From: Gemmatimonadota bacterium
Lineage (GTDB): Bacteria; Gemmatimonadota; Gemmatimonadetes; Gemmatimonadales; Gemmatimonadaceae
DNA length: 17,923 nt
Direction of reading: 5' to 3'
Assembly (NCBI GenBank): GCA_003142495.1
Contig: PLMM01000347.1
Span: forward strand, 1-17,923
This document shows, piece by piece, positions 1 through 17,923 of this stretch (its first letter is position 1; each line of letters begins with the position of its first letter). Under the pieces are notes generated by a model. The model did not search any database, was not told where the DNA came from, and saw only the letters and a program-made list of their open reading frames with translations. The translations under genes were made by a program, and so were the position numbers.

Positions 1-84
1 ACCGGGACGTTCGCGACCTACGAGCCCCTTGCCGGTGATCAGCAGCCGCCGGTTGAGGGGATCGTAGGTCGCGAACGTCCCGGT
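1..84. repeat. 23-bp perfect inverted repeat at the window edge (probable fold-back artefact)
   Basis: Bases 1-23 are the exact reverse complement of bases 62-84, separated by 38 bases. The right arm is genuine coding sequence for the KTGTF region of the carboxypeptidase. The left arm replaces the expected downstream codons, and read on the plus strand it spells TGTFATYEPL, the same peptide again. Two opposed copies of one coding segment at the very end of a sequence suggest an assembly or amplification fold-back. A real terminal hairpin cannot be excluded from the sequence alone. Confidence 0.85.
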
Positions 85-1488: not shown

Positions 1489-1646
1489 GCGGCTCCCTGC
1501 TCTTCGAAAGAATGGTATATATAGTTGTGCACAAGACTGTATGCAGTGCATCCTAATGTTGTCGGGGGAAAGTAGCCGCGCAAGGCGGCTCGCCCGGACT
1601 ATACTTTCATGCATCCGCATCCACATCCACCCTTCGGGACCCAACC
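1489..1646. promoter_or_regulatory. Divergent regulatory region between dacB and the first GntR gene, with operator-like site A
   Basis: This 158-bp gap has no gene. Site A (1513-1534) starts TGGTATATATAG and ends in the perfect 10-bp palindrome TTGTGCACAA (1525-1534). It matches the motif found at the three other intergenic regions by the GntR genes, with its TGGTATA end facing dacB. On the minus strand it overlaps the TATATA run that is the best -10 candidate for dacB, but no good -35 is seen. On the plus strand TATACT (1600-1605) is a good -10 for the GntR gene, again without a clear -35. A perfect dyad, AGCCGC-5-GCGGCT (1574-1590), lies just upstream of that -10. Confidence 0.6.
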
Positions 1647-2402
1647 ATGGCCGTTCGCAGCGCAGCGAAGACCGCAAGGCGCCCGGTGGCGGGCGCGACC
1701 AACGTATTGACGATCGCGCGCGGCGAGGGAGCCCTCGCGGTCTACGAGCAGCTGCGCGAGCGCATCGTGCGTGGGCGGCTCGCGCCGGGGAGCCGGCTGG
1801 TCGAGCGCGAGGTCGCCGCGCGACTGGGCGTGAGCCGCACGCCGGTGCGCGCGGCGCTCGAGCGCCTGACGCAGGAGGGGTACATCGTCGCGACGGGAAG
1901 CGCGCTGTTGGCGCGCTCGACCGTCGCCCCGCTCACGAACGACGACGCGCGCGAGATCCACATGATCGTCGCGCAAATCGAGGGGCTCGCCGCGCGCGAG
2001 GCCGCCGCCAAGCCCAAGGCCGTGCGGCTCGCGATGACGAAGGAGATGCGGCAGCTGAACGCACAATTCTCGAAGGCGGCGCAGGCTCGGCTCCCCGACT
2101 CCGACCGGCTCCACGACCTCGATGATGCATTCCACCAGCGCTACGTAGACGTCGGCGCCGGGCCGCGCCTGCGCACCCTGCACGCCGCGGTCAAGCCGCA
2201 GGCCGAGCGCTACGGGCGCATCTACACGAGCACGCTCGTGAGCGAGGTCGTGACGTCGGTGGCCGAGCACGAGGCGATCGTGAAGGCGCTCGAGGCGGGC
2301 GATGGCGCGAAGGCTCAACGCGCGGTGCAGACGAACTGGGAAAACGCGGCCGAGCGACTGGCGCGCGTGATCAACGCGGTGGGCGAGCGCGGCGCCTGGT
2401 AG
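1647..2402 (+). CDS. GntR-family transcriptional regulator, FCD subfamily (paralogue 1)
   Basis: This is a 251-residue DNA-binding regulator. Residues about 30-100 form the winged helix, with a recognition region reading GVSRTPVRAALERL. Residues about 110-245 form an all-helical FCD ligand domain. FCD proteins usually bind a metal and an organic or amino acid through one Asp and three His. D159 and H163 (DDAFH) and H208 (AEHEAI) are present, but the position of the third His, 22 residues after H208, is N230 in QTNW. The paralogue at the right end carries the same TNW change. The start ATG has only a weak ribosome site. The protein probably represses its own region and the next gene, since operator-like sites lie at 1513 and 2440. 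Its ligand cannot be read from sequence, though the neighbouring genes suggest a peptide- or amino-acid-derived compound. Confidence 0.92.
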   Translation: MAVRSAAKTARRPVAGATNVLTIARGEGALAVYEQLRERIVRGRLAPGSRLVEREVAARLGVSRTPVRAALERLTQEGYIVATGSALLARSTVAPLTNDDAREIHMIVAQIEGLAAREAAAKPKAVRLAMTKEMRQLNAQFSKAAQARLPDSDRLHDLDDAFHQRYVDVGAGPRLRTLHAAVKPQAERYGRIYTSTLVSEVVTSVAEHEAIVKALEAGDGAKAQRAVQTNWENAAERLARVINAVGERGAW

Positions 2403-2428
2403 CATCCGTGCAGTGCGCGTGGCGCCAC

Positions 2429-2461
2429 TTGCAGCATTCTGGTATACCGATATAGTATGCC
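2429..2461 (+). promoter_or_regulatory. Promoter with operator-like site B upstream of the CPBP protease
   Basis: TTGCAG (2429-2434) and TATAGT (2451-2456), 16 bases apart, form a good promoter. Operator-like site B fills 2440-2461, starting TGGTATACCGAT and ending AGTATGCC, so it covers the spacer and the -10. Bound regulator would block RNA polymerase. Site C at the right end has the same arrangement of -35 and motif. The motif runs over the ATG at 2457. Transcription from about 2463 would leave the ATG at 2466 almost leaderless. Confidence 0.65.
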
Positions 2462-3323
2462 GAATATGACGGATACTTCGCCCCGCTGGAAACGGGAGCT
2501 CGCGACCTTCCTGCTCCTGACCTTCGCGCTCAGCTCCATCTTCTACGTCACCTTCGCGCGCGCGAAGTCGCTCGGCGCCGGCGGTGGGCTCTACGTGCCG
2601 ATGCTGATGTGGTGCCCCGGCATCTCGGCGCTCGCGACACGCCTCTTCTTCCAGCACAACGTGCGCGGCGAAGGATGGGCGCCGGGCCCGATTCGCTACC
2701 TGCTCGCGGGCTACGCCCTTCCCCTCGCGTACGCCGCGTGCGCGTACGCCGCGGTCTGGATCTTCGACTTCGGCGGAGTCGATCTCGGTCGCTTTCACAC
2801 AGCCCCGCTCCGCTTCCTCACCGTCGGTCTCGCCACGAGCGTCGCCTTCGCCCTCGGCGAGGAGCTCGGCTGGCGCGGCTTCCTCGTGCCCAAACTCGCC
2901 GAGCGGCTGTCGTTCACTCGCACCGCAATCGTGAGCGGCATCATCTGGGCGTCGTGGCACATGCCGCTGATAATCTTCGCGGACTACAACGGCGGCACCC
3001 CCACGCTCTACTCGATCGCGTGCTTCGCGGTGATGGTGGTGGGGATCAGCTTCCCACTGGCCTGGCTCAGGCTCAAGTCCGGCAGCGTATGGCCCGCCGC
3101 ACTCCTGCACGCCACTCACAATTTGTTCATCCAGGGATTCTTCGACACCGTGACGGTCGATACCGGCGTGACGAAGTATCTGCTCAGCGAGTTTGGCGCC
3201 GTGTTGGCAATCACCGCGGCGATCACCGGCGTTCTCTTCCTGCGACTCGACCGATCGCAGCCGGTGCTCGAGACGACGCGCGATTCAATGCTCAATCGGG
3301 CGCAATTGCCGCGCGCCATTTGA
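2457..3323 (+). CDS. CPBP-family intramembrane metalloprotease (Abi/CAAX-type)
   Basis: This polytopic inner-membrane protein of 288 residues has several hydrophobic helices (the first at about 16-34). It carries the family's catalytic motifs: E135-E136-L-G-W-R140 (EExxxR), W-A-S-W-H168 in the place of FxxxH, and H218-A-T-H-N222 (HxxxN). CPBP proteins are membrane proteases related to Rce1; bacterial members are linked to self-immunity and peptide processing, and this one's substrate is unknown. The ATG at 2457 lies inside the promoter -10/operator, so ATG 2466 (285 residues, MTDTSPRW) is the more likely start. The 3' end overlaps the convergent serine hydrolase gene by 39 bases, leaving no room for a shared terminator. 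Confidence 0.88.
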   Translation: MPNMTDTSPRWKRELATFLLLTFALSSIFYVTFARAKSLGAGGGLYVPMLMWCPGISALATRLFFQHNVRGEGWAPGPIRYLLAGYALPLAYAACAYAAVWIFDFGGVDLGRFHTAPLRFLTVGLATSVAFALGEELGWRGFLVPKLAERLSFTRTAIVSGIIWASWHMPLIIFADYNGGTPTLYSIACFAVMVVGISFPLAWLRLKSGSVWPAALLHATHNLFIQGFFDTVTVDTGVTKYLLSEFGAVLAITAAITGVLFLRLDRSQPVLETTRDSMLNRAQLPRAI

Positions 3324-4850
3324 CCGACTGAACGTCACACCGAACGCCTGCACGGCGCTCGCGTGGCCGGCTCCGTCGGGAATGAACGTCAACTCCGAAA
3401 TCCCTTCGAGCTCGTCGTCCTTCACGCTGCGGAATGTGTCGTACGATGTGTGCTTCAACTCACCGATGTCGAAGTTGACGAAGCGCGCGCGCAGCGCTCC
3501 ATTCAGAAGCGTCACCTGAATCGATCCGTACGTCGAATCAACATAGCTGCCCGCGTAACGCTCGAGCGGCAGCGACGGTTGCGTCGCTCCGTCGCGGCTC
3601 CGCTCCGAGTCGGCGGCCGGCGCGGCGACATGGGCCGCGGCTTGCAGTGAATCGAACAGCGCCTTCACATCTTTATTCCAGTCGCGATTCGACGCCTTCG
3701 GCGCGCTCCGGTACATGTCGAACACCTCGTACATGAGCGCATGCCGCAGCTCGGCGTGATCGAGATTCGCCAGCACGTACACGCCGACGCGCCGCTCCGG
3801 CAGCAGGCCAATGATCGCGCTCATCCCATCGATGCTGCCGGTGTGCATCCACACCGTCTCGCCGTGAAAGTCCTGCACGAACCAGCCGAGTGCGTAGCTG
3901 AAGAAGTGCGGCGGTGCGAGCGCGAGCGCGGGGTACTGCGCCATCGACGCCCGCATCTGCGGCGCGACGATTTCCCTGAACGTCGCAGGCTGGATGAGCC
4001 GGCGATTTCCGATGCGGCCGCTGTCGAGCATGAAGCGCATCCACTTGGACATGTCCGAGACGCTCGACCAGACCGATCCCGCCGGCGCGATGGCATCCGT
4101 GGTGCGGAGCGGTATCAGGCGCACGGTGTCGCGCACCTCGCCGTACGGCTTGGCGACGTTCGGCTTCCCTGCGATGCCCGAGACCAGCGGAATCGACTCC
4201 GACATGCCGAGCGGTGCGAAGATGCGCGTGCGGACGAAGGTCTCCCACGGCATCCCCGATAGCTGCGCTACGAGCGCGCCGGCGATGTCGTACATGACGT
4301 TCTGATATTCCCACTGCGAACGAAAAGACGAGATGGGTTTGACGTACCGCAGCCGTCGCATCATCTCCGGCGTCGAGTATTGATTCTCGGGGAATGCCCA
4401 GAGCAGATCGGTGCCCGGTAGCCCGGTGCGATGCGTGAGGAGATCGCGAACGGTGAGCTCGCGCGTCGCGTACGGATCGTACAGCTGGAAGCTGGGGAAA
4501 TAGTCGATGACGCGATCGTCCCACTTGAGTTTTCCTTCATCCACGAGCATCGCGAGCGAGGCAACGGTCATCGCTTTCGTCGTCGACCCGATCGCGAAGC
4601 GCGTATGCTCGGTCGCCGGCGCGGGCTTCCCTAGCTCGAGCACACCGTAGCCCTTCGCGAACACCAGCGAATCGTCCTTCACGATCGCGATCGCGAGCCC
4701 CGGCACGCGCCAGTCGCGTGCCGCGTGCGCGACGTACTTGTCGAAGGCGACGAGGTCGGGTGATTGAGCCGATGCGCTCACGGCGACTAGCGCCGATGCG
4801 AGCGACAGCGCCGCAACGCGCAATCCGCGCATACTATAGTAGTAGGCCAT
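3285..4850 (-). CDS. Exported serine hydrolase, beta-lactamase class C/PBP4* type with C-terminal DUF3471-like domain
   Basis: This is the last gene of the seven-gene operon, 521 residues from ATG 4850. That ATG shares one base with the TGA of the S41 peptidase gene (TGATG), which favours it as the coupled start. The next Met, at 4832 (MRGLRVAAL), would give a cleaner signal peptide ending ...VSASAQ. Active-site motifs are S89-T-T-K92, Y182-Q-N184 and H336-T-G338, the last standing where KTG is found in beta-lactamases. The family includes D-aminopeptidases, esterases and D,D-peptidases besides beta-lactamases. The region after about residue 400 looks like the beta-rich tail (DUF3471-like) often found on such hydrolases. 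With a D-aminoacylase in the same operon, a D-amino-acid peptide or peptidoglycan fragment is a plausible substrate, but this is inference. Confidence 0.9.
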   Translation of the reverse strand: MAYYYSMRGLRVAALSLASALVAVSASAQSPDLVAFDKYVAHAARDWRVPGLAIAIVKDDSLVFAKGYGVLELGKPAPATEHTRFAIGSTTKAMTVASLAMLVDEGKLKWDDRVIDYFPSFQLYDPYATRELTVRDLLTHRTGLPGTDLLWAFPENQYSTPEMMRRLRYVKPISSFRSQWEYQNVMYDIAGALVAQLSGMPWETFVRTRIFAPLGMSESIPLVSGIAGKPNVAKPYGEVRDTVRLIPLRTTDAIAPAGSVWSSVSDMSKWMRFMLDSGRIGNRRLIQPATFREIVAPQMRASMAQYPALALAPPHFFSYALGWFVQDFHGETVWMHTGSIDGMSAIIGLLPERRVGVYVLANLDHAELRHALMYEVFDMYRSAPKASNRDWNKDVKALFDSLQAAAHVAAPAADSERSRDGATQPSLPLERYAGSYVDSTYGSIQVTLLNGALRARFVNFDIGELKHTSYDTFRSVKDDELEGISELTFIPDGAGHASAVQAFGVTFSRSNGARQLRPIEH

Positions 4851-7800
4851 CAGTCGTGCTCAGTGGGCGCAGTTACGACCCGGTCAATGGGTGCCGGGCG
4901 CGGCGTGCGCTCAACGGGATGCTCCTTCAACATCTTCATCGCCTCCGCGACGCCGCGCTCGAGCTGCGCGTCGTGGCCGCGCATGAGCTCCGCGGCGGTA
5001 TTCTCGACCTCGATGTCCGGTGCGACACCCTTGTTCTCGACCGACCATCTGCCAGCGCTGTCGTAGAAGGCGAGATCCGGAGCGGTGATGCCTCCGGCGT
5101 CGATCACATTCGGAACGCCGAGCGTGCCGACGAGCCCTCCCCACGTGCGCGTGCCGATCAGCGGGCCGAGCTTCGCGACGCGGAAGTAGTAGGGGAGCGC
5201 GTCGCCTCCCGATCCGGCAGATTCGTTGATGAGCATCACCTTCGGACCGAAGATGCCCACCATCGGCGCGGTGATGCTCTTCCCCGCGCGCTCAGCGAAG
5301 TAGCCCATGCGCGTGCGGCTGAGTTGCTGGATGACATAATCCGCCACGGCGCCGCCTTGATTGTATCGCTCATCGATGATGACGCCGTCCTTGTCCTGCT
5401 GTGCGAAGAAATACCTGTTGAACGCGGTGAAGCCGGCGACGGACGTATTCGGAAGCCAGACGTACGCGAGCCTTCCGCCCGAGAGCTTGTCGACGAGCCG
5501 GCGATTGTCGTCGATCCACGCCTGCGTGCGCAGCGCCTCATCGTCCGCGATCGGCATCACGTTGATCACCCACGACCCCTGCATGCCCGGCGTCGTGTTT
5601 ACGCGAACGCTCGTGAGCTTCCCGGCGCTTCCCTCGAAGAAGCTGTAGAGATTCGCAGGCGGCGTGAGCGCGCGCCCGTTGACCTCGAGGATGTAGTTCC
5701 CCTCGCCAACGCTCACCCCCGGTACGCTGAGCGGCGCACGCAGCCGCGGATTCCAGCTCCCAGCCGTATAGATGCGCTGAATGCGATAGCGGCCATTCTC
5801 AACCGAGTAGTCCGCGCCGAGGAGTCCGACCGATGTGTGCGCGGTGTCGGGGACGTCGCCGAGTCCTTCGAGATACGAGTGACCAACCGTCAGCTCGCCA
5901 CCAACGGTCGCGATCAGGTAGGCGAGGTCGGCGCGGTGCTGCACGTACGGTAGAAAGGCGCTGTATTTGTCGTAGATCGCCTGCCAGTCGTTGCCGTGCA
6001 TCTTCGCATCGTAGAAGAACTCCCGCTGCGTGCGCCACGTTTCGCGGTAGATCTCCGCCCACTCCGCGCGCGGATCGACGAGTGTCTCGATGCCGTCCGT
6101 CGCGAGAAGACCCTCCCCCGGCTTTGGCGGCTGCTCCGCTCCGACGATGCTCCAGTGCTCGCCGCTGCTGTATAGAATCTTCTTCGCATCCGCGGAAATC
6201 ATGTACGATGTGATCCCGTCCACGAACGGGTGCGCCTTTCTGTCGCTCAGCGAGTACTGAAAGAGCTGCTGCGGTTGAGGGCCACCCTCGCCCGAGGGCG
6301 GCGCCTGCGTGTAGAAGAAGGTGCCCGCGACTCCGGCTGCGAGATCGCCCAGATCGCCCGCCGGCACATCGAGCGGAATGATGCGGTGCTCAATTCCCTC
6401 GAGGTCGACGCGCGCCTCCGCCGCACTCGGCGCCGGCTTCACCGCCGGCGTCTTCGGAGTTGCAGGCTTCGCTGCTGGAAGTGTCTTCTGCGCCGAGTCA
6501 CCGGCGTCGCCGAGTCTCGCCGCCTCATCACTGAGGCTTGGAAGAAATGGCGATGGCTCGTTCGCGGCGAGCACCGCGAGATAGATGCTTCGCTTGACCA
6601 CGTGCTCCATCGAGCTCATGTCGAGCCATCCCGTGGTGAGCCCGTAGTTCGTGCTCGCCAGGAAGTACAGATATTTTCCACTCGCATCGAACGCCGGGGT
6701 GATGGCGTCGGCCATGCCGTCGGTGACCTGATGCGCCTTTGCATCGCGAATCGAATACAGGAAGATCGCGCGCATGTGACTGTCGAGTGACTTCGAATAC
6801 GCTACCCAGCGTGAATCCGGCGACCACGCCGCATCGAAGCCGCGTCCCGGATCGTCGTACGTGTCCACGTCGATCTTCGTGAAGCGCCCGCTCGCGACGT
6901 CGACGGACCAGAGCTGTGCCCCCGTATCACGAAAGAGAAGCTGTCGAGCATCGGGCGACCAGACCGGGCGCGCGAAGTATGCACGCGAGGGCAAAGCGAT
7001 CGCGCGTGGCTTCGAGTCTCCGGCCTGGTCGCCGATCATCAACTGATACTCGCCACTCGCATCGGAGAACCAGGCGATGTGCCTACCGTCGGGAGACCAG
7101 GCGGGGTCGCGATCGTGCGCGCCCGAGCTCTGCGTGAGGTTGCGATAGCTGCCATCCTTCGCGGCGACGGTGAAGATGTCGCCGCGCGCCTCGAACGCCG
7201 CGCGCACACCCGTCGGCGAGAGCGACGCCTCGGCGATCAGCGACGCGACGCGCTTCATCTGCGGCCGCGCCCAGGGAAAATCTCCGGTCGCGACGATGTC
7301 CAGTTGATGCGAGGCTCCACTCTTGAGATCGAGAATGTGCACGTAACCAGCCTGCTCGTACGCGATCGCGTCCTCGCCCGCCGAGGCCGACATGATGTCG
7401 AAGTCGCGATGGCGCGTGAGCTGCGTGAGCTGTTTCGTGTCGAGATTCTGCGCGTACAGATTATTCGTGCCGTCGCGATCGGAGAGAAAGTAGACAGTGT
7501 TGCCGACCCACATTGGATCGGTGTCGTTGCTGTTGTTCCAGGGGAGCTTCTCCTCGGCGTAGCTCGCGAGATCGATGATGCGGATCGGCTGCGTGCGGCC
7601 GCCGCGATAGCGCCTCCACTGGCTGCTCTGATTCTCCGCCCACATGGACGCGAACATCGCGACCGCGATCTGCTGGTAGGCCACGCGTTTGCCGTCCGCC
7701 GAATACGAACCGGTGAATGCACGAGGTATCGGAAGAAGCTCGGGCATCCCTCCGTCCGGCGCGACCGTCCAGAGACGAAAGAACGAATTCGCTCCCGGAG

Positions 7801-8191
7801 TAGGGAGCGTTCCCCGGCTGGAGCCGAACACGATGCGTTTCCCATCGGGCGTCCACCCGCGTACGTAGTCGGCGCCGGGATGATAGGTCAGCCGCTTCGG
7901 CTCACCACCGGCGACGGGGACAACGAAGACATCCGTGTTCCCCGCGATCGTCGCGGAGTACGCGATGAGCGATCCATCCGGAGAGAAGTGCGGATCCGTT
8001 TCCGCGGATGGCGTGCTCGTGAGACGGCGCGCAGTGCCTCCTGCTCGAGGCACTACCCACAGGTCGCCGCCATACTCGAAGGCGACCATGTCCCGGCTCA
8101 CCGTGGGCCGGCGGAGAAATCTCGTTCCCTGCCCCGCCGCAATTGCGGCCGGTGCGACCAGGAGAAGAAGTCCGAGTAAAGCTCTGCGCAT
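4850..8191 (-). CDS. Tricorn-like S41 serine peptidase, exported
   Basis: The protein is 1113 residues from ATG 8191. An upstream ATG at 8248 would place a hydrophilic leader before the signal peptide (MRRALLGLLLLVAPAAIAAGQG) and overlap the SusD gene, so 8191 is preferred. Residues about 25-560 are repeats of the DPxFSPDGxxIAY type that build the Tricorn beta-propellers. A Pro/Ala/Lys-rich linker follows, then a PDZ-like and an S41 catalytic domain. The catalytic set fits Tricorn: H771 (VGHSY), nucleophile S994 (NESAGSGGD) and E1052 (VENKGVAPD). The S-to-E distance of 58 equals that of Tricorn S965-E1023. Tricorn trims peptides to short products. Archaeal Tricorn is cytoplasmic, but this one has an export signal, so it would work on imported peptides in the periplasm. 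Confidence 0.93.
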   Translation of the reverse strand: MRRALLGLLLLVAPAAIAAGQGTRFLRRPTVSRDMVAFEYGGDLWVVPRAGGTARRLTSTPSAETDPHFSPDGSLIAYSATIAGNTDVFVVPVAGGEPKRLTYHPGADYVRGWTPDGKRIVFGSSRGTLPTPGANSFFRLWTVAPDGGMPELLPIPRAFTGSYSADGKRVAYQQIAVAMFASMWAENQSSQWRRYRGGRTQPIRIIDLASYAEEKLPWNNSNDTDPMWVGNTVYFLSDRDGTNNLYAQNLDTKQLTQLTRHRDFDIMSASAGEDAIAYEQAGYVHILDLKSGASHQLDIVATGDFPWARPQMKRVASLIAEASLSPTGVRAAFEARGDIFTVAAKDGSYRNLTQSSGAHDRDPAWSPDGRHIAWFSDASGEYQLMIGDQAGDSKPRAIALPSRAYFARPVWSPDARQLLFRDTGAQLWSVDVASGRFTKIDVDTYDDPGRGFDAAWSPDSRWVAYSKSLDSHMRAIFLYSIRDAKAHQVTDGMADAITPAFDASGKYLYFLASTNYGLTTGWLDMSSMEHVVKRSIYLAVLAANEPSPFLPSLSDEAARLGDAGDSAQKTLPAAKPATPKTPAVKPAPSAAEARVDLEGIEHRIIPLDVPAGDLGDLAAGVAGTFFYTQAPPSGEGGPQPQQLFQYSLSDRKAHPFVDGITSYMISADAKKILYSSGEHWSIVGAEQPPKPGEGLLATDGIETLVDPRAEWAEIYRETWRTQREFFYDAKMHGNDWQAIYDKYSAFLPYVQHRADLAYLIATVGGELTVGHSYLEGLGDVPDTAHTSVGLLGADYSVENGRYRIQRIYTAGSWNPRLRAPLSVPGVSVGEGNYILEVNGRALTPPANLYSFFEGSAGKLTSVRVNTTPGMQGSWVINVMPIADDEALRTQAWIDDNRRLVDKLSGGRLAYVWLPNTSVAGFTAFNRYFFAQQDKDGVIIDERYNQGGAVADYVIQQLSRTRMGYFAERAGKSITAPMVGIFGPKVMLINESAGSGGDALPYYFRVAKLGPLIGTRTWGGLVGTLGVPNVIDAGGITAPDLAFYDSAGRWSVENKGVAPDIEVENTAAELMRGHDAQLERGVAEAMKMLKEHPVERTPRPAPIDRVVTAPTEHD

Positions 8192-8197
8192 CGTGCG

Positions 8198-8201
8198 CCT
8201 C
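8198..8201 (-). promoter_or_regulatory. Ribosome binding site deciding the S41 peptidase start
   Basis: The minus strand reads TGAGG six bases before ATG 8191. The GAGG overlaps the TGA stop of the SusD gene. This supports 8191 over the upstream ATG 8248 and indicates translational coupling. Confidence 0.7.
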
Positions 8202-9516: not shown

Positions 9517-9518
9517 GG

Positions 9519-12500
9519 TCAGAAGGTCAGGTTGAGGGTCGCAACGATGCGGCTGAGCGGCGGGATGACGCCTTGGTCGAACTGCGTAAGGCCCGACGGA
9601 GTTCCGTTGATCTCCGGATCCGGACCACGATAGTGCGTCCAGAGACCCAGCTCGCGTGCGGCGAGTGTGAACGACGCGTGCTGGAATCCCGGAATGAGCC
9701 TGTCAGGAAGAGAGTAGGTCGCCGAGACCTCGCGGAGCTTGAGGAACGACGCGTCCTGGATGAATTGATCCTGCGCCTGAGCGAGATAGCTGCCGATTCC
9801 CGCCTCCGCGACGTAGGTCGCCCCGTACTTCGTGGGGTGATAGTTCACATCGCAGAGCCCGGCGCCGAGGAGCCCGTCGCATCGGCCCTGCTCGATGAAG
9901 TTGTAGAGCGAGTTCCCGCGCTTGAAGTCAACCAGCGCGTAAAGACGCAGGCGCTTGAAGAGCGTGAAAGTATTTCCTACGGAGCCGGTGCTGGTTGGAG
10001 TCGGCGTGCCCGCGAACACGAAGGGCGCGAGATCGCACGAGACGGGCACCTGCCCCGCTCCGCCATCGCAGAGCACGTTCGTGGCGGCGCCCGATTTGTC
10101 CAGCGTTGCCGACACGACACGCTTGGAGAAATACGACTCGATCGGGTATCCCACGACATTGAACTGCCCCGTTGTGGTCACCAGCGATGGGACGTCGCCG
10201 AGGCTGATGATCTTGTTGTGCATCGTCGCGAAGTTACCCGAGATGTCCCAGGAGAAATTCGTGCGCTGGAGCACCTGCACACTCGCCTCGATCTCGAGCC
10301 CGTGATTGTTCACCTGTCCGAGATTCTTGAACTGCGTGCCGAAGAATCCGATGGACGGCGCGATGGTCTGTGCGACGATCTCGTTCGTCGTGTGCTTGTT
10401 ATAGTAGGTGACGTCGAGATGCAGCCGCTTGAACAGATCCGATTCGAATCCGACCTCGACCTCCTTCCCTCGCTCCGGCTTGAGATCGCTGTTGCCGAAC
10501 GCGCCCGCGGTGAACGCGTTCGTCCCGCCCGGCCCCTGCACCGGCTGAAACGAGCGCAGGGCGGAATACGCGAGCGGCGCGCGCCCCGACTCCCCGTATG
10601 CCGCACGCAGCTTCAGTGAATTGACGAACGCCAGATGCCAGAACGGCTCCTCACTCACGATCCATGACGCACCCAACTTCGGATACGTGATCCACTTGAA
10701 ATCCGTGCCGAATGCGCTGTTGTTGTCGACGCGAATCGCTCCCGTCAGAAAGAATCGATTGTTCAACCCAACCTCTTCCTGCGCGTAGCCACCGATCGTC
10801 GTGTTCGTGGTGTCGCCCTGCGATGCCGCAATCGCCTGCGCCGTTCCCGATACGGTCGTGATCCCCGGACCCGGAAATCCGATGCCGCCAAGGAAGCTCT
10901 CGTTCAGTGCAGTGCGATACCACTGGCCGCCGAGAGACGTTGATGAGCTCCACGCCGGCGTGAGCTCGAACTTCGCGGTGCCGTTGTAGTCGAATGTCGT
11001 GAGCGTGCGTCGCGTCAGCGTCTGGCCGATGCGCCCTGCAGCGTTGCCGAGCGTGAACGGCGCAAGCTCCGGCGGTGCGTACGTCTCGAGCGTGCGACCG
11101 TCCTCTCCGGTATAGTCGACGCCCGCTATCAGGCGCTCGGTAAACCAGTGCACGGGTTGGTGGCTCACCGTGGCACTCCCCGTGAAACGGTTGATGCCAT
11201 CGCTATTGTCGAAGAGCGTCTGCGGAACCGCCGGAGGAACGTTCGGATAGAAGCCCTCGGCTCCGGGCACTGTCCATAGCAGCGGGTGAGCAAACTCCGC
11301 TCCGAGCATCGGCGACAGTCCGACATCCGCGCCGAGATGATACGTCCCCTGCACGTAGTTCAAACTCGTCGCGACGTCGTATTTCTCGCTCGGCGCCATG
11401 TTCAGATTGGCGTGCGCGCTGAACTGCGAGATCTTGTTGTTGGGCTCGACGCCGTGATCGTTCTGATAGTTGGTGCTCACGAAATAGCTGGTCGCCCCGA
11501 GCGCACCGGCGAGTGACACGTTGTACTGCTGCAACTGCCCCGTCTTGAACACCGGTGTACCCGCCGCCGCCAAGGCGCCGATCGCATTGTACGAGACGAG
11601 TGCGCCGGTGCTGTCGGGAAGGAAATTCGTCGGAAGGCGCCCCTCGGGATCGCGAAAGTACACGCCGCCCTGCTGCAGCTGCACGTTGAGTACGGGCTTC
11701 GTACCGGATCCCTTCTTCGTGATGATCTGGATGACGCCGTTCGCCGCTTCGGTTCCGTAGATCGTGGCGGCAGCTGGTCCCTTGATGATCTGGATGCTCT
11801 CGATCTCTTCGGGATTGATGTCGTTCAACCGCCCGACGACGCCCGCATTCTGCGAGCCGAAGCCGCTGTTTCCATTCGATGTCGGACCGCCGCCGGTCGC
11901 GTTGCTCACGCGCACGCCATCGATGTAGATCAGTGGATTGTTGTCGAGCCCGAGGCTCGCCACTCCGCGGATGTTGATCTGTGGTCCCGCACCCAGCCTC
12001 CCCGTGCTCGGTGCGATCGTCACTCCGGGCGCGCGCGAGTTCAGCAGCGTACCCAGATCGGGTGCCTGCGACTTTGAGAGAACGTCTGCGGCGTTCACCG
12101 TCGAGACGGCGTTACCGATCTCTCGTCGCTCCTGCCCCTGTCCTGTTCCTGTGACGATGATCTCGCTCAACGAAGTAGCGGCGGCCTGCAGCTCGAAATC
12201 CATGACGGCCTCGTTCTGGCCGTCGGTGGTTACCGAGTGACGCTGCGGCGCATAGCCGAGCCGTCGCGCGATGAGCAGGTGCGTGCCTGCCGGCACGTTC
12301 GAGATTCGGTAGCGACCATCCTGGCCGGTGATCGCAGCGAGCCGCGTACCTTCCGCCGTGACCGCCACTCCCGGAATTGCTTCCTTCGTACTTGAGTCGA
12401 TCGCTCGACCCGTGATCACCGATCGTGGCTGCTGCGCAAGCGCGTGGAGCCCCGTCACCGGTATTGCCGGCACAACGAGAAACGAGATAGCGCCGAGCGC

Positions 12501-12557
12501 GAGCCATCCCGCAAAGAGCAACGTTCGCGGCCGATATTGACATGAACTCTGTCGCAT
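9519..12557 (-). CDS. SusC/RagA-family TonB-dependent outer-membrane receptor
   Basis: The protein is 1012 residues from ATG 12557. A longer frame goes back to 12671 but overlaps the upstream gene. ATG 12557 has AGGAG six bases before it and begins a normal signal peptide (MRQSSCQYRPRTLLFAGWLA, cleaved near HALAQQ). Next come a carboxypeptidase-regulatory-like beta domain (SVITGRAIDSSTKEAIPGVAV...), a TonB-box-like EIIVTGTG, a plug with the signature INIRGVASLGLDNNPLIYID, and a long 22-strand barrel ending in Phe (ATLNLTF), as outer-membrane proteins do. It should import substrate delivered by SusD using TonB energy. It lies 40 bases downstream of the D-aminoacylase gene, the widest gap in the operon. 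Confidence 0.95.
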   Translation of the reverse strand: MRQSSCQYRPRTLLFAGWLALGAISFLVVPAIPVTGLHALAQQPRSVITGRAIDSSTKEAIPGVAVTAEGTRLAAITGQDGRYRISNVPAGTHLLIARRLGYAPQRHSVTTDGQNEAVMDFELQAAATSLSEIIVTGTGQGQERREIGNAVSTVNAADVLSKSQAPDLGTLLNSRAPGVTIAPSTGRLGAGPQINIRGVASLGLDNNPLIYIDGVRVSNATGGGPTSNGNSGFGSQNAGVVGRLNDINPEEIESIQIIKGPAAATIYGTEAANGVIQIITKKGSGTKPVLNVQLQQGGVYFRDPEGRLPTNFLPDSTGALVSYNAIGALAAAGTPVFKTGQLQQYNVSLAGALGATSYFVSTNYQNDHGVEPNNKISQFSAHANLNMAPSEKYDVATSLNYVQGTYHLGADVGLSPMLGAEFAHPLLWTVPGAEGFYPNVPPAVPQTLFDNSDGINRFTGSATVSHQPVHWFTERLIAGVDYTGEDGRTLETYAPPELAPFTLGNAAGRIGQTLTRRTLTTFDYNGTAKFELTPAWSSSTSLGGQWYRTALNESFLGGIGFPGPGITTVSGTAQAIAASQGDTTNTTIGGYAQEEVGLNNRFFLTGAIRVDNNSAFGTDFKWITYPKLGASWIVSEEPFWHLAFVNSLKLRAAYGESGRAPLAYSALRSFQPVQGPGGTNAFTAGAFGNSDLKPERGKEVEVGFESDLFKRLHLDVTYYNKHTTNEIVAQTIAPSIGFFGTQFKNLGQVNNHGLEIEASVQVLQRTNFSWDISGNFATMHNKIISLGDVPSLVTTTGQFNVVGYPIESYFSKRVVSATLDKSGAATNVLCDGGAGQVPVSCDLAPFVFAGTPTPTSTGSVGNTFTLFKRLRLYALVDFKRGNSLYNFIEQGRCDGLLGAGLCDVNYHPTKYGATYVAEAGIGSYLAQAQDQFIQDASFLKLREVSATYSLPDRLIPGFQHASFTLAARELGLWTHYRGPDPEINGTPSGLTQFDQGVIPPLSRIVATLNLTF

Positions 12558-12563
12558 TTCGAG

Positions 12564-12568
12564 CTCCT
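12564..12568 (-). promoter_or_regulatory. Ribosome binding site deciding the SusC start
   Basis: AGGAG on the minus strand lies six bases upstream of ATG 12557, inside the 40-base gap after the D-aminoacylase stop. It is the clearest ribosome site in the operon and rules out the upstream in-frame starts. Confidence 0.8.
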
Positions 12569-12597
12569 GTTGATGTGTTACGATCCAGCGCGGTGAT

Positions 12598-14343
12598 TTA
12601 ACGATCACGTCTCTCATGCCACCCCGGCCCGCGCACGACGCGCCCCGGCTTTGCTCCTGTGTGCTTGCCATCGCGAATCACCTCGACGCCGTTCACGAAC
12701 ACCTCGCGAACGCCAGTCGATGCCTGATTCGGCTTCTCGTACGTGGCGTGCTCCTGGATCGTCGCCGGATCGAAGACCACGACGTCGGCGTACATCCCCT
12801 CGCGCAGCAGACCGCGATCGCGAATGAGCAATCGGTCCGCGACGGCGCCGCTCATCTTCCGGATCGCATCCTCGAGCAGCAGCACATGCTCATCGCGCAC
12901 GTATTTGCCGAGGATGCGCGGGTAGGTGCCGTAGGTGCGCGGATGCGTGAACGTCGTCATGCTGTCGGGATCCGGCCCATCAGCATCGGTGCCGATTTTC
13001 ATCCACGGCTGCTTGAGCTGCATGGCGACGTTCTCGTCGCTCATGAGGAAGTAGATCGTGCCGATGTCCTGATGCTCCGTGAGCAGCAGATCCATCACGG
13101 TGCTCAGCCAGTCCGTGCCGCTTCCCGCCATCACCTCGGACAGGCGGTGCCCCGCCCACTTCTTGTTTTTCGGATTGGTGAAGGCCGTCAGCAACACGCC
13201 CTCTGGCGTTGCCAGCTCGCAGAGACTCTCCGCGTACGATGTGGGATGCGCGATCTCGTTGCGGATCTTTGCGCGCTTCGCCGAGTCGGCGAGGTTCTCG
13301 AACAGCTTCCCGTCCGCCGATGCCGACGGCGGCAGACATGCCGCCAAGCCGGTGCCGCCCGCCGTGTACGGATACATGTCGGCCTGCACATCCTGCCCCG
13401 CCGCGCGCGCCGAGTCGATCTTCGCGATCGCCTGGCTCGCCTTTCCCCAATTCCGCTTCCCCGCCGCCTTCAGATGATAGATCTCGACCGGAACGTGCCC
13501 TTCCTGCCCGATGCGAATCGCCTCATCGATCCCCTCGAGATAGCGATCCGCCTCGGAGCGCATGTGCGTGATGTAGACGCCACCATACGGCGACATCGCC
13601 TTCGCGATCTCGATCAGCTCCTCGGTGCTCGCGTAGTTCCCCGGTGGATAGATCAGCGCGCTCCCCAATCCCATCGCGCCGTCCTCCATCCCGTGCCGCA
13701 TCGCCTCGCGCATCGAGTCGAGCTGCGCCGCCGGCGCCGCGCCCATGTGCAGCCCCATCGCGTACTCGCGAATCGTGCTCGCGCCGACGAACGAGCCGAC
13801 GTTCGGCGAGATGCCATGCGCCTGCATCGCACGCAGCCATGCATCGAATCCGTGTGCGCCCGGGAACTTCCGCAGCATCGCGAGCGCTGCGGTGTCGGCC
13901 GCATTGTCGGCGAGTGTCAGCGCGCTCACCGGCGCAACGGTGTACGCCTCGCCGAGGATCTCCGTCGTGACGCCCTGCGTCAGCTTGCCGACATCGCGCC
14001 CGTCGCCGTTGAGAAAGAGATCGCCGGACTGTCCCTGGATGTCGATGAACCCGGGCGCGACGACCATCCCCGCCGCATCGATGCGCTTGAGCGCGTGCGC
14101 GGAGCCGAGCTGTCCGCGTCTTACAATGCGAACTATACGATCGCCTTCTAGGGCGATATCACCATAGAACCACGCGTTACCGCTCCCATCGACGACGCGG
14201 CCATTCACGATGATCACGTCGTACGTCGTGTCCCCCGCCGGACTCGGCGATCCGTTCCCCGCGCTCGATGCTGCCGTGCTGCATGCGAGCGTGAGTGCGG
14301 TCGCCGCGGCGGCGAGCGTCAAAGTGCGAAGTCGCGTGCGCAT
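12598..14343 (-). CDS. Exported D-aminoacylase-like amidohydrolase lipoprotein with an altered metal site
   Basis: The protein is 581 residues from ATG 14343, one base after the permease stop and with GGAG upstream. A longer frame to 14454 is an antisense-free but hydrophilic extension into the permease gene and is rejected. Residues 1-21 are a lipoprotein signal (ALTLAC). The rest is an amidohydrolase barrel of the N-acyl-D-amino-acid deacylase type: VIIVNGRVVDGSG, APGFID, YITHMRSE, EIYHLKAAG, IGTDADG and the C-terminal REGMYADVVVFDP. The family releases D-amino acids from N-acyl-D-amino acids. Ligands matching H220, H250 and D366 of the known enzyme are H260, H290 and D453. The HxH is Q103-G-Q105, and the Cys96 position is E132. 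The fold is clear, but the exact substrate and even catalysis are less certain. Confidence 0.88.
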   Translation of the reverse strand: MRTRLRTLTLAAAATALTLACSTAASSAGNGSPSPAGDTTYDVIIVNGRVVDGSGNAWFYGDIALEGDRIVRIVRRGQLGSAHALKRIDAAGMVVAPGFIDIQGQSGDLFLNGDGRDVGKLTQGVTTEILGEAYTVAPVSALTLADNAADTAALAMLRKFPGAHGFDAWLRAMQAHGISPNVGSFVGASTIREYAMGLHMGAAPAAQLDSMREAMRHGMEDGAMGLGSALIYPPGNYASTEELIEIAKAMSPYGGVYITHMRSEADRYLEGIDEAIRIGQEGHVPVEIYHLKAAGKRNWGKASQAIAKIDSARAAGQDVQADMYPYTAGGTGLAACLPPSASADGKLFENLADSAKRAKIRNEIAHPTSYAESLCELATPEGVLLTAFTNPKNKKWAGHRLSEVMAGSGTDWLSTVMDLLLTEHQDIGTIYFLMSDENVAMQLKQPWMKIGTDADGPDPDSMTTFTHPRTYGTYPRILGKYVRDEHVLLLEDAIRKMSGAVADRLLIRDRGLLREGMYADVVVFDPATIQEHATYEKPNQASTGVREVFVNGVEVIRDGKHTGAKPGRVVRGPGWHERRDR

Positions 14344-14344
14344 G

Positions 14345-15745
14345 TCAGAGCTCCGGAACGATTGGAAGTGTCGGCGCGCTACGACGCGACCTCGCGCGCC
14401 ACGCATAGAACGCCGGGGTGCCGAGCAGCACGGCAACGACGCCAGCGGCCGCACGAGCGGGCTGGGTGACGAGTGTGTTGACGACGAGCGCCGCGGCTGA
14501 TGCCACGAAGAGAATCGGCGTCACCGGATAGCCCGGCACGCGAAACGGTCGCACGGCATTTGGCTCGCGGCGCCGATACACGAACACGCTCAGCGCGCCG
14601 AGCCCGTAGAAGATCCAGCCGGTGAAGACGACGTACGTGAGCAGCTGCTCGAAGGTCCCCGTCGACGCGAGCAGCGCGGACCAGAGCGCGATCGCCGTGA
14701 TCGCGAAGGCCGGTGTGCCGAGCGTGGGGTGGATGATTGCGAGCCGCTTGAAGAACACGCCGTCGCGCGCCATGGCGAAATACATTCGCGGCGCAGTGAG
14801 CATGATCCCGTTGGCCGCGCTGAAGATCGAGACGAGGATCAGGAGTCCGACGATGCGTCCGGCGACGGGACCGAGCACCGCAATCCCCGCGTCGGCCGCG
14901 ATGTGATCGCTGGCGGCAACGGCCTGCGGACCGAGCGCCGCGATGTAGCCGAGGTTGGCAAGGACGTAGAGCGCGACGAGGGCAGCGGTCGCGAGCGAGA
15001 TCGCACGCGGGAAGGTGCGCTGCGGATTGCGCGTTTCGCCAGCGGAGAAGGTGACGTATTGCCACCCCTCGTACGCCCAGAGCACACCGATCATCGCGGC
15101 GCCGACGCCGGCGATGAGCGCCGGTGAGACCGAAGTCGGCCACGCCTCGCGGCTAACTATGGCGCCCAGGGTCGAGGTGTGCCCCAGGGTGATCATCGCG
15201 ATGCTGAGCGCGAGCAGGCCCGCGACCTTGGTGCCCGTCGTCCAGTTCTGCATCGTCGCGCTGTTGCGCGTGCCGCGTACGTTGATCACGGCGATGATCG
15301 CGATGACGGCGACGGAGATGAGGCGCGCGCCGATGCCGCCAACCGGAAGAAACGCGGCGAAGTATCCCGAGAACGCCACCGCGAGCGTGGCGATCGAGCC
15401 GCTCGCGATCACGAAGAAGCTCGTCCAGCCGTAGAGAAAGGCGGGGAGCGGGCCGAAGGCATCGCGGATGTACGTGTACAGCCCGCCGGCATCCGGCTTC
15501 ATCGCCCCCATCTCCGCGTACGTGAGCGCGCCGAGATAGGAGAGAATGCCGGCGGCCACCCACACGAGCAGCGCGGGACCGGTCTGCGTCCCGGTTTCGC
15601 GCAGCACGACGCCGGGAACGAGAAATATTCCCGAGCCGATCACCGTTCCGATCGCGATGAAGGTGAGATCGAGCAGGCCGAGCGTGCGACGAAGCTCGGT
15701 GATGGCACCGGCGTCGTCCGCGTTCGTCGCGATGGGCGTGCTCAT
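14345..15745 (-). CDS. APC-superfamily amino-acid permease
   Basis: This integral membrane transporter of 466 residues has about 12 hydrophobic helices. ATG 15745 is chosen because it overlaps the GNAT stop by four bases (ATGA). A longer frame to 16012 only reads antisense-like Arg-rich sequence over the GNAT gene. The first helix contains the substrate-site signature of the family, IAIGTVIGSGIFLVPG, with the GSG break, followed by ALTYAEMGAMKPDAGGLYTY, typical of APC/LAT carriers. These import amino acids by cation symport or exchange them. Its position between a GNAT acyltransferase and a D-aminoacylase suggests it brings in the amino acid released outside. The specificity cannot be read from the sequence. 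Confidence 0.93.
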   Translation of the reverse strand: MSTPIATNADDAGAITELRRTLGLLDLTFIAIGTVIGSGIFLVPGVVLRETGTQTGPALLVWVAAGILSYLGALTYAEMGAMKPDAGGLYTYIRDAFGPLPAFLYGWTSFFVIASGSIATLAVAFSGYFAAFLPVGGIGARLISVAVIAIIAVINVRGTRNSATMQNWTTGTKVAGLLALSIAMITLGHTSTLGAIVSREAWPTSVSPALIAGVGAAMIGVLWAYEGWQYVTFSAGETRNPQRTFPRAISLATAALVALYVLANLGYIAALGPQAVAASDHIAADAGIAVLGPVAGRIVGLLILVSIFSAANGIMLTAPRMYFAMARDGVFFKRLAIIHPTLGTPAFAITAIALWSALLASTGTFEQLLTYVVFTGWIFYGLGALSVFVYRRREPNAVRPFRVPGYPVTPILFVASAAALVVNTLVTQPARAAAGVVAVLLGTPAFYAWRARSRRSAPTLPIVPEL

Positions 15746-16620
15746 GGTGTCGCCACTTCGGGCGCGAGGGCGAGTACATAAAATGCGCGCGACGTGACCG
15801 GGTCGCGGTGCAGTCCCGTCACCGAGTACCCCTCGTAGAGCGCGCGCTCGAAATTGATGCGCGTGGCCGCGTGCCAGCGGGCGGCGCGCTCGGGCGAGCT
15901 CGCCGCCATCGCCTGGAAATCGGCGGGGATCTCGAGGAGCATCGTTGCCGAACGATCCTCGAGCGTAGCCGCGCGATCGCCCGCGCGTGGCTCGACCGTG
16001 AGCACGGGACACTGTGCGAGTCGCTCAGCGTCTGAGCGAGTGGGGCGCGAGGCGACGGGCGCCGTGTCGGACGCGACGACGAGGCGATCGGTGGCCAACC
16101 CGCTGTGTAGCGGACTCGCGGTGGTGCCGTACATGTCGCGCACGTACTCGACTACGCGCGCGCCGAGCAGATTCAGGTTGAGATGCGCGTTCTTCGCGAC
16201 GAGCGGATCGTACGTCCAGTACACCCGCGCGATTCCGCGCCGCGCGAGCTCGGCGCGCTGGAATTCCTTGAGCATGCGGCCGACGCCGGCGTTCCGTGCG
16301 GACTCGCGAACACCGAGGACGTGCGACCAGTGTGCGAGAGTGCCGTCGATGAGCGCTGGAAGTCCGAAGACAAAGCCGATGAGCTCCCCGTCCGGAGTGA
16401 AGGCGCCGGCCACGAGACCGCCGACGCGTGCGACGACCTGCAGCACGGATGCGGGGACGGCGTCTCCGTGACTCGGGCCCCAAATCTCGTGCTGGAGGGC
16501 GACGCAGCTCTGGCACTCGAGGCGGGATGTGATGGTGCGCGCGACGATCTCTGCGCCGACATCGGCGAGGACGCCGGTGTCGGAGGTGGGAGTCGAGTGT
16601 GTGCGGGAGTCGTCGAGCAC
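15742..16620 (-). CDS. GNAT-superfamily acyltransferase, COG3375-like
   Basis: This is the first gene of the operon. There is no early ATG. GTG 16620 gives 292 residues with a normal start before the conserved ARTITSRLECQSCVALQHEIWG. The open frame reaches back to 16824 but crosses the promoter and operator. The acyl-CoA loop is R-N-A-G-V-G in VRESARNAGVGRMLKEFQR. YWTYDPLVAKNAHLNLNLLG followed by ATDRLVV are the marks I associate with COG3375. GNAT enzymes of similar context work with N-acylamino-acid racemases, putting a succinyl group on D-amino acids in a D-to-L conversion route. No such racemase lies in this window. The C-terminal third (LEIPADFQAM..., INFERALYEGYSVTGL) is a separate small domain. 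Confidence 0.82.
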   Translation of the reverse strand: MLDDSRTHSTPTSDTGVLADVGAEIVARTITSRLECQSCVALQHEIWGPSHGDAVPASVLQVVARVGGLVAGAFTPDGELIGFVFGLPALIDGTLAHWSHVLGVRESARNAGVGRMLKEFQRAELARRGIARVYWTYDPLVAKNAHLNLNLLGARVVEYVRDMYGTTASPLHSGLATDRLVVASDTAPVASRPTRSDAERLAQCPVLTVEPRAGDRAATLEDRSATMLLEIPADFQAMAASSPERAARWHAATRINFERALYEGYSVTGLHRDPVTSRAFYVLALAPEVATP

Positions 16621-16665
16621 GCGGGGGCGGTTGGGGGCGAGAGACGAGGGAAGCCGTGGGGGACC

Positions 16666-16694
16666 AACATATGCCGCAATCTCGTATACCACAA
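16666..16694 (-). promoter_or_regulatory. Promoter of the seven-gene operon overlapping operator-like site D
   Basis: On the minus strand, TTGTGG (16694-16689) and TATGTT (16671-16666) are 17 bases apart. Site D (16691-16670), beginning TGGTATACGAGA and ending GGCATA, occupies the -35 edge, the whole spacer and the edge of the -10. The predicted start of transcription is near 16659, which gives a leader of about 39 bases before GTG 16620. The TGGTATAC half is identical to sites B and C, while the second half is weaker. Confidence 0.55.
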
Positions 16695-16729
16695 CGGTCG
16701 ACCACTTCGGGCTACAAACCAGCGCGTGC

Positions 16730-16758
16730 TTGCGCCCCCGCGGCGGCGCGCGTATGCT
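16730..16758 (+). promoter_or_regulatory. Candidate promoter of the second GntR gene
   Basis: TTGCGC (16730-16735) and TATGCT (16753-16758) are separated by 17 bases. Transcription would begin near 16765, only about two bases before the GTG at 16767. This implies a leaderless message, in line with the absence of a ribosome site. Confidence 0.4.
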
Positions 16759-16766
16759 CCGCGATC

Positions 16767-17585
16767 GTGCCTCCCTCGCCCTCACGCCCCGCCCGCAAAA
16801 CCCCCCGCCGCCGCGCCGCCCCATCGCCCGCGGGCGCCGACGAGCGTCAGGACAACGTCTCGCGCGCGTACCACGACCTCCGCAGCGTCATCGTCTGGGG
16901 ACAGCTGCCCCCCGGCACCCGCATCTCCGAGCGCGTGATAGGCGAGCGCCTCGGCCTCAGTCGCACCCCCGTTCGCAGCGCGCTCCATCGGCTCGAGCAG
17001 GAAGGCTTCGTCGCCTCGGCAGGTAAAGGGCGCGAGCGCCGGCTCATCGTCGCGCCGCTCACGCGCGACGATGGCGAGTAGGTCTACTGCATCGTCGGCC
17101 ATCCCGAGGGACTCGCCGCCCGCGTGGCGGCCGCGCTCCCCGCGGCGAGGCGCAAGGCCATTGCGACGCGCCTCCGCGCGCTCAACCGCGAGCTCTCACT
17201 CGAGTCGCGCAAGCGCGAAGATGCCGCCCGCGTCTTCGATCTCGACCTCGAGTTCCATCGCACCTACGTCGAAGGCGTCGTCGGCCCGCGCCTCCTCACC
17301 CTCCACCGCGCGATCAAGCCGCAGAGCGAGCGCTACTCGCGCCTCTACGTCACCGTGCTCCTCGACGAGCTCTCCGCATCCGTGAAGGAGCACGAGGCGA
17401 TCGCGTCCAGCATCGCCAAGGGCGATCCCGATGGTGCGCAGCGCGCCGCCGAAACCAATTGGCACAACGCCGCCCGCCGCCTCGCGCGCATCATCGCGCA
17501 GCACGGGGAGCGCGGCAGCTGGACCTCGTGGGACCACGGCGTGATCAACCTCGCGCCCAGCGCGGGGCGGAAGGTACGCTTCTAG
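16767..17585 (+). pseudogene. GntR-family FCD regulator (paralogue 2) interrupted by an in-frame TAG
   Basis: One frame from GTG 16767 to the stop at 17583-17585 encodes a complete paralogue of the first GntR protein except for TAG at 17079-17081. Before the stop lies the winged helix (RLGLSRTPVRSALHRLEQEGF, up to LTRDDGE). After it lies the whole FCD domain (FHRTYVEG, KPQSERYSRLY, KEHEAI, ETNWHNA). The alignment with paralogue 1 (DDAREIHMIV against DDGE*VYCIV) has no gap. The TAG falls where paralogue 1 has Glu, so a single GAG-to-TAG change would explain it. The FCD domain also has Asn at the third metal-His position. If real, the product is a DNA-binding stub of 104 residues. A sequencing error or readthrough remains possible. 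Confidence 0.8.
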
Positions 17586-17607
17586 CGCGCACCCTGGCGA
17601 TCGCCTC

Positions 17608-17639
17608 TTGCGGGATTTGGTATACCGATGTTGTATACA
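17608..17639 (+). promoter_or_regulatory. Promoter with operator-like site C upstream of the right-end serine hydrolase
   Basis: TTGCGG (17608-17613) is followed 18 bases later by TGTATA (17632-17637). Operator-like site C (17618-17639) starts TGGTATACCGATG and ends GTATACA. It shares its first 12 bases with site B and lies at nearly the same distance from the -35. Repression by a bound GntR dimer is the natural reading. The 80-bp gap between the two genes holds nothing else apart from the ribosome site AGGAG at 17655-17659. Confidence 0.65.
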
Positions 17640-17665: not shown

Positions 17666-17923
17666 ATGGCTGCCGAACAACGAACGCGCACCGCCCGGCG
17701 CGCACTCTACACGTCCCTCGCCGTCGCCGCGCTCGCGCTGCTCGGAGCCCCCGCGCTCGCTCAAGCCCACACCAAAGCCGCGCCCCAGGCCGCCGGACCC
17801 AAAGGCGGCGCTCCCGCCGCCACGACGCCCTCGATAGCGACCCCCTCCCTCGACGACACCGCCGCCCTCGGCGATTTCATCGACGGCATCATGAAGGCCC
17901 ACGTCGAAGACCTCCGCATCCCC
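17666..17923 (+). CDS. Exported serine hydrolase (beta-lactamase-like), 5' part only
   Basis: Eighty-six codons are visible from ATG 17666, with AGGAG six bases upstream, before the window ends. Residues 1-33 are a clear signal peptide (RRALYTSLAVAALALLGAPALAQA). A low-complexity Ala/Pro/Lys-rich linker follows, and then TAALGDFIDGIMKAHVEDLRIP. That last segment matches the opening helix of class-C beta-lactamase-type hydrolases, where vPG follows, as in DKYVAHAARDWRVPG of the operon's own hydrolase. The catalytic motifs lie beyond the edge, so the family call rests on this short match. The gene stands directly behind the interrupted GntR gene and operator-like site C. Confidence 0.65.
   Translation, partial: MAAEQRTRTARRALYTSLAVAALALLGAPALAQAHTKAAPQAAGPKGGAPAATTPSIATPSLDDTAALGDFIDGIMKAHVEDLRIP

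Follow-up and report, generated by a model that had tools for sequence, protein, structure and literature searches.

A candidate FCD-type GntR regulon with paired palindromic operator boxes in Gemmatimonadaceae

Regulators of the GntR family with an FCD domain are already known to use operators of the GT-N2-AC type, extra boxes and sites occupied by several dimers, as described in those parts of three publications on which the comparisons made here draw (PMC4494728, PMC7797058, PMC8012715). In the survey of FadR-subfamily sites (Suvorova et al. 2015, PMC4494728), several groups have the GT-N2-AC palindrome, additional half-sites of lesser strength lie 7-12 nucleotides from the centre, and arginine at position 28 of the helix-turn-helix (HTH) prefers G; Gemmatimonadota are not mentioned in the parts of that survey covering these sites. 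Atu1419 of Agrobacterium fabrum (FCD, VanR group), a repressor that controls hydroxycinnamate degradation, binds ATGTATACAT, 10-base-pair (bp) palindromes located over the -10 hexamer or between the -35 and -10 hexamers, and its two palindromes, 190 bp apart, are brought together by tetramer looping (PMC7797058). NanR of E. coli (FCD) acts on sialic acid genes through multiple close boxes with a GGTATA core, arranged as direct repeats spaced by less than half a helical turn (PMC8012715). The present analysis concerns a window of 17,923 nucleotides, the whole of contig PLMM01000347.1 (C207) from a Gemmatimonadota bacterium (3.22-Mb assembly, 431 contigs, 84.5% complete), which carries two paralogous FCD-type genes, gntR1 and gntR2, and four TGGTATA sites, named A to D. 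Three of these, B, C and D, likely serve as operators for the GntR-1/GntR-2 group of FCD-type repressors, with two dimers predicted to lie across each promoter, in what would be a peptide-scavenging regulon.

The heptamer TGGTATA is present in the window in exactly four copies, at 1513, 2440, 16691 (minus strand) and 17618, compared with a mean of 0.14 over 200 shuffles, none of which reached four. The four sites are not due to chance, and the preliminary description, which had found the heptamer in intergenic DNA at these places only, is right on this point. It had also regarded all four as matching sites of one kind. This holds for B, C and D, which share the octamer TGGTATAC, as it had said (three copies in the window, one at each site), and which are better described as paired palindromic GTATAC boxes with a spacing of 13 bp; it does not hold for A, a weaker array of three boxes in 12-bp steps. 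The 12 leading bases that it had ascribed to B and C are in fact common to B and D (TGGTATACCGAT), C having TGGTATACGAGA instead. The sites are the following:

1515..1544, no strand assigned: site A, three GTATAC-like boxes in 12-bp steps just upstream of dacB, defined by sequence
2441..2461, plus strand: site B, double dyad of GTATAC (2442-2447) and GTATGC (2455-2460), 13 bp apart, upstream of the CPBP gene
16684..16702, minus strand: site C, double dyad of GTATAC (16684-16689) and GTCGAC (16697-16702) with 13-bp spacing, in the stretch between gntR2 and the leftward operon
17619..17639, plus strand: site D, double dyad of GTATAC (17620-17625) and GTATAC (17633-17638) with 13-bp spacing, upstream of the right-end hydrolase

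A search of the whole assembly for GTATAC-N7-GTATAC with at most one mismatch returned only B and D, the reversed control giving none, so that no unrelated site of equal score was met; with at most two mismatches, 13 places were found, B, C and D included, against five in the reversed control. Site D is free of mismatches and its 19-mer is identical in the related genomes G001, G002 and G004, while site B, with one mismatch, ranks among the two best pairs of the assembly and has a 21-mer identical in G002. The octamer TGGTATAC was also considered as a regulon marker by itself. It has 15 listed places in the assembly, three of them in the window, and is therefore not specific alone; the other places lie mostly inside reading frames (10 of 11 inspected loci fall in some open frame of at least 60 amino acids, a weak statement in GC-rich DNA), and the octamer was rejected for this use.

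The paired boxes resemble the Atu1419 operators in having a GTATAC core within a 10-bp palindrome over a promoter, here a predicted one, and differ from them in that the two boxes abut at 13 bp (PMC7797058). Unlike the FadR-subfamily sites with their extra half-sites, they repeat the whole palindrome at a constant distance, which is 13 bp for regulators with arginine at HTH position 28 (Arg-type) and mostly 12 bp for other relatives. The likeness to NanR is closer in the core than in the arrangement. A cooperative tandem operator, with several dimers on direct GGTATA repeats, would fit the NanR repeat TGGTATAW (PMC4494728), and three NanR dimers cooperate through a 32-residue N-terminal extension (PMC8012715), the HTH here beginning near residue 31; such an operator is nonetheless improbable, as the direct repeats of NanR, less than half a turn apart, are not found here, where full palindromes stand 12-13 bp apart.

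Conservation was analysed in the 80 best-placed loci among the GntR matches listed, fetched with wide flanks together with the window's own two. The FCD-type (FadR subfamily) palindrome NyGT-Nx-ACNy is present in these loci as GTATAC, which is the commonest palindrome of its composition in the vicinity of the GntR genes (47 near against 78 far; 1.29 Mb), the runner-up being ATCGAT with 22 near but 470 far. Within five genomes of the genus, 17 pairs at 13 bp were recorded with at most one mismatch (control, none), 14 of them adjoining CPBP, S12-type, S9-type or GNAT/GntR genes. Related Gemmatimonadaceae retain pairs at the B-, C- and D-type positions, and the C-type arrangement stands upstream of the GntR-2 orthologues in G001, G002, G003, G004, G017 and G067; the sites are thus found in orthologous loci. 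The close named relatives of GntR-2 (15 loci, 66-100% identity) belong to Gemmatimonadaceae or to metagenome-assembled genomes of Gemmatimonadetes.

In the tree of the 82 homologues, gntR2 falls in a clade of 17 with support of 100/100. At one mismatch or fewer, all nine pairs near this clade are spaced 13 bp, and the other 65 genes have three 12-bp pairs and a single 13-bp pair, which is site B itself. When up to two mismatches are allowed among 94 genes, 13-bp pairs accompany 21/31 Arg-type versus 2/63 other genes, and 12-bp pairs 4/31 versus 13/63; the Arg-type genes also show 8-bp and 15-bp pairs (7/31 each), partly echoes of the same sequences. A set of 16 named loci (51-100% identity) contains a 13-bp pair in ten, a 12-bp pair in two and neither in four; it overlaps with the genomes of the main set.

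The family-wide scan gave 46 matches to GGTATACC-N6-GTATACC (13 bp, at most one mismatch) in 24 of 179 genomes, the reversed control giving 5; at 14 bp there were 4 matches in 4 genomes (control 5). Genome-wide, only the 13-bp form is clear of its control. Pairs of this form occur in 17 of the 28 genomes with a GntR-1/GntR-2-type regulator versus 7 of the 151 others, with a p of 1.8e-11 that overstates independence because the genomes are related; 12-bp and 14-bp pairs have no significant link with the same genomes. The list of regulator-bearing genomes was set by hand (at least 60% identity to GntR-2, with one partial gene, plus the GntR-1 clade) and did not include G068 and G085, in which the Arg-type proteins reach 51-53% identity; counting these two as well changes the figures to 18/30 versus 6/149. 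The scan comprises 34 distinct 13-bp sites (counted from the list), 31 of which were placed against neighbouring genes. Among 29 of them, 23 stand beside regulon-type genes or a GntR gene, and two further sites both stand beside S12-type genes. The neighbours are mostly S12 hydrolases, CPBP or other peptidases, a D-aminoacylase and the GNAT-led operon, as labelled by tblastn to the window proteins or by eye, with Pfam for some.

The two regulators possess the elements expected of the FCD type. The GntR winged helix and the FCD domain stand together in GntR-1 and are split in two by a TAG codon in GntR-2. A sequence search with GntR-1 finds chain 6z74 (GntR family, E 2.8e-10), which we take to be the Atu1419 structure. 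The metal site of FCD domains is formed by one Asp/Asn and three His. In gntR1 and its relatives the first Asp is kept in 92/94 proteins and two His in 94/94, and the presumed position of the third His is Asn in 92/94; the effector pocket may therefore differ from that of the usual FCD regulators. HTH position 28 (Arg35 of FadR) is occupied by Arg in both paralogues and in the orthologues of each, and by Thr or Ser in most other proteins; both paralogues have SRTP in the recognition helix. The base beside exact GTATAC boxes is G in 58/74 cases for Arg proteins, T in 22/22 for Thr proteins, and for Ser proteins T in nine, G in six and another base in three; every Thr-type relative that has an exact box in its vicinity carries TTGTATACAA there. 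Counted by rows (40 of 94 kept, those with equal G and T flanks or without an exact box being left out), G prevails in 23/23 Arg rows and T in 15/17 non-Arg rows. This pattern agrees with the published Arg-G preference, in the part of the survey covering it (PMC4494728), and the residue-flank link is consistent rather than proven.

The promoter-like hexamers around B, C and D are arranged as follows:

16666..16694, minus strand: pair of the leftward operon, TTGTGG (16694-16689), 17 bp, TATGTT (16671-16666)
2429..2456, plus strand: pair of the CPBP gene, TTGCAG, 16 bp, TATAGT
17608..17636, plus strand: pair of the right-end hydrolase, TTGCGG, 17 bp, TTGTAT

In site C, box 1 overlaps the first hexamer, and TTG(T/C)GG-17-TA(T/C)GTT directed towards the leftward operon is seen in 6/6 C-type sites shown, two of them nearly identical. 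In site B, box 1 lies in the spacer and box 2 overlaps the second hexamer; the D boxes are placed in the same way, with a weak second hexamer. TTGC stands 11-12 bases ahead of box 1 in 14 of 22 target-side sites and is absent there in the other eight; where present, it places the boxes as in B, with box 1 between the hexamers and box 2 over the second.

The fixed offset of a promoter-like pair in B and D, with box 2 on the second hexamer, would also suit a repeated element that is simply a promoter feature of co-expressed genes, i.e. -35 and -10 hexamers with a TATAC-rich spacer, in place of a repressor operator. This is very unlikely, given that box 2 of C is situated ahead of the -35-like hexamer and so outside that promoter, that both boxes are palindromic, that the flanking base goes with residue 28 of the regulator, and that TTGTATACAA is uniform in the Thr-type relatives mentioned above.

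Under the operator reading, each of B, C and D would act through its two 10-bp palindromes with a GTATAC core. Their distance of 13 bp would allow two regulator dimers to sit side by side across the promoter and thereby to keep RNA polymerase off it, by analogy with the repressor Atu1419 and the position of its palindromes on or between promoter hexamers (PMC7797058). Site C would control the operon for GNAT, permease, D-aminoacylase, TonB/SusD, tricorn and S12 proteins, site B the CPBP protease and site D the right-end S12 hydrolase, so that the regulon would cover uptake and breakdown of peptides and N-acyl-D-amino acids; the repressor would presumably be released by a breakdown product of these compounds. 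The small local regulon of the preliminary description, in which FCD-type GntR-like operators over promoter-like pairs would serve the CPBP gene, the leftward operon and the right-end hydrolase, is upheld at the level of sequence. It is judged to be a real, conserved regulon of the known FCD-GntR kind with a distinctive double-dyad operator, through which the regulator would bind and repress.

Several observations weigh against this reading. Regarding the sites, C has two mismatches, three of the 17 genus pairs are inside unrelated reading frames, six of the 29 placed family sites are not beside regulon-type genes or a GntR, and 47 distant GntR loci, as a background figure, yield three pairs at 13 bp with at most two mismatches. 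Regarding the link with the regulators, seven genomes have a 13-bp pair with no GntR-1/GntR-2-type regulator on the list, and in 11 of the 28 regulator-bearing genomes no pair was found at this stringency. The 12-bp form is barely above control genome-wide, both as the GG..CC-flanked pattern (21 matches in 14 genomes; control 15) and as unflanked GTATAC-N6-GTATAC with no mismatch (23 sites spread over 19 genomes; control 14), and the 12-bp class therefore rests on the neighbourhood of GntR genes. Arg28 changes only twice on the tree, which leaves 1-2 independent pairs for the residue-flank link, and this link does not count as significant once relatedness is considered; a quick tree rejects a single clade of all Arg-type rows by a narrow margin (p-AU 0.0485). 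The hexamers of the predicted promoters are poor consensus matches and a consensus promoter scan of 16500-17923 reported none near C or D, so that the promoter reading is an argument from conservation. Finally, gntR2 contains one in-frame TAG (17079-17081), between the DNA-binding and FCD domains.

The last point bears on which paralogue uses the sites. The preliminary description had proposed one or both GntR proteins, and this stands with two qualifications: gntR2 is interrupted here, and B is present in G002 between dacB and the CPBP gene without GntR-1 at that place, so it cannot depend on GntR-1 alone. The gntR2 orthologues of G001-G004 have open frames, and a crude codon count shows gntR2 to be as constrained as its orthologues are among themselves; any loss would therefore be recent, or an assembly error. 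GntR-2 is most likely the usual user of B/C/D-type sites in the genus and fits them better than GntR-1, which is probably able to use the same sites and may be the sole working regulator here if the TAG is real. A strict rule assigning 12 bp to GntR-1 and 13 bp to GntR-2 fitted 82 genes and was broken by G161 and G182, in which the GntR-1 orthologues adjoin a 13-bp GG..CC pair. Because it has the same DNA-reading Arg and orthologues beside a 13-bp pair in two genomes, GntR-1 could stand in for GntR-2, and the sequences plausibly indicate that both paralogues use the same operator. It is possible, though doubtful, that GntR-1 alone regulates all four sites and that GntR-2 is a decaying pseudogene whose sites persist through use by GntR-1. 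The intact GntR-1, the shared Arg and SRTP and the G161 and G182 loci speak for this; against it are the 13-bp pairs in G002, G003 and G004, with no close GntR-1 among the matches listed (G003 and G004 being 68% complete), the 12-bp spacing of the array upstream of GntR-1 itself, and the orthologue-like constraint on gntR2. Returning to shared use, it may tentatively be suggested that the two paralogues, distant members of one FCD family, converged on the same Arg and on one promoter-embedded double dyad, the spacing passing from 12 bp (Thr/Ser-type, mostly TT..AA) to 13 bp (Arg-type, GG..CC), with mutual back-up.

Site A, located between dacB and gntR1, comprises GTATAT (1515-1520), GTGCAC (1527-1532) and GTATGC (1539-1544), weak boxes with three mismatches per neighbouring pair. 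It retains 24/33 positions in G001; in G002, without GntR-1 at that place, the best 12-bp-type pair on the dacB side has five mismatches. The array is seen with GntR-1 in two genomes only and, from its sequence, is best read as a site of a different kind from B, C and D, linked to GntR-1 and dacB. A double box with 12-bp spacing, GGTATACCACATTGTATACC, is present in G001 (L060:12230-12249) by a second GNAT-like gene near gntR1 and resembles a C-type site one base shorter. In ten other loci (L062, L072, L075, L076, L078, L082, L086, L107, L108 and L115), a non-Arg GntR-1 homologue directly follows a D-aminoacylase gene, and an exact GTATAC is located 1.76-1.86 kb before the regulator, near the D-aminoacylase start.

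The genes of the window are listed below:

1..1488, minus strand: dacB, D-Ala-D-Ala carboxypeptidase (S13), truncated at the contig end (PF02113; TIGR00666 above cut-off)
1647..2402, plus strand: gntR1, intact FCD-type GntR regulator of 251 amino acids (PF00392 and PF07729)
2457..3323, plus strand: CPBP-family membrane protease (PF02517)
3285..4850, minus strand: serine hydrolase with a beta-lactamase/S12 fold, final gene of the leftward operon (PF00144)
4850..8248, minus strand: tricorn-type peptidase (S41), leftward operon
8200..9516, minus strand: SusD-like lipoprotein, leftward operon (PF07980)
9519..12671, minus strand: TonB-dependent (SusC-like) receptor, leftward operon
12598..14454, minus strand: D-aminoacylase (N-acyl-D-amino-acid deacylase), leftward operon (PDB 1rjp, E 2.5e-79)
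14345..15745, minus strand: amino acid permease (APC), leftward operon (PF13520)
15742..16620, minus strand: GNAT-fold protein, first gene of the leftward operon (weak Pfam matches in relatives and an AlphaFold model)
16767..17585, plus strand: gntR2, FCD-type GntR with the in-frame TAG at 17079-17081 (PF00392 in the first piece, FCD in the second)
17666..17923, plus strand: right-end hydrolase, start only, cut by the contig end (59% identity to the start of a G001 gene with PF00144)

The GNAT label of the first operon gene is a prediction that draws on relatives, 10/14 of which touch PF13508 at E of at most 0.01, the window's own copy being below the Pfam cut-off, and on an AlphaFold model (mean pLDDT 84) resembling acetyltransferases of the PDB. 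GTG at 16620 is the sole in-frame start codon (ATG, GTG, TTG or CTG) between 16450 and 16665. The piece of the right-end hydrolase is too short for a Pfam match of its own. The CPBP start may be 2466, because 2457 falls within candidate operator B. If the B promoter is right, transcription would begin almost at this ATG (region 2451-2468), which suggests a leaderless CPBP message here and perhaps in G002. The contig starts with a 23-base inverted repeat (1-23 versus 62-84), probably a fold-back assembly artefact of the contig end.

Literature searches that combined Gemmatimonadota with GntR operators, with regulons or with the genes of this locus gave nothing on the subject, as judged by title and abstract start, and searches on D-aminoacylase regulators returned no paper. 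As far as the literature was searched, the new details are the taxon, the regulon, the fixed 13-bp double dyad and the likely shared use by two paralogues; the general principle is ordinary and the local wiring is new. For Gemmatimonadaceae, the locus would offer a regulon of peptide and D-amino-acid scavenging that is open to testing. Its two spacings, 12 and 13 bp, together with the pairing of Arg with G and Thr with T, would provide a compact natural experiment on the divergence of paralogous repressors or the sharing of operators between them.

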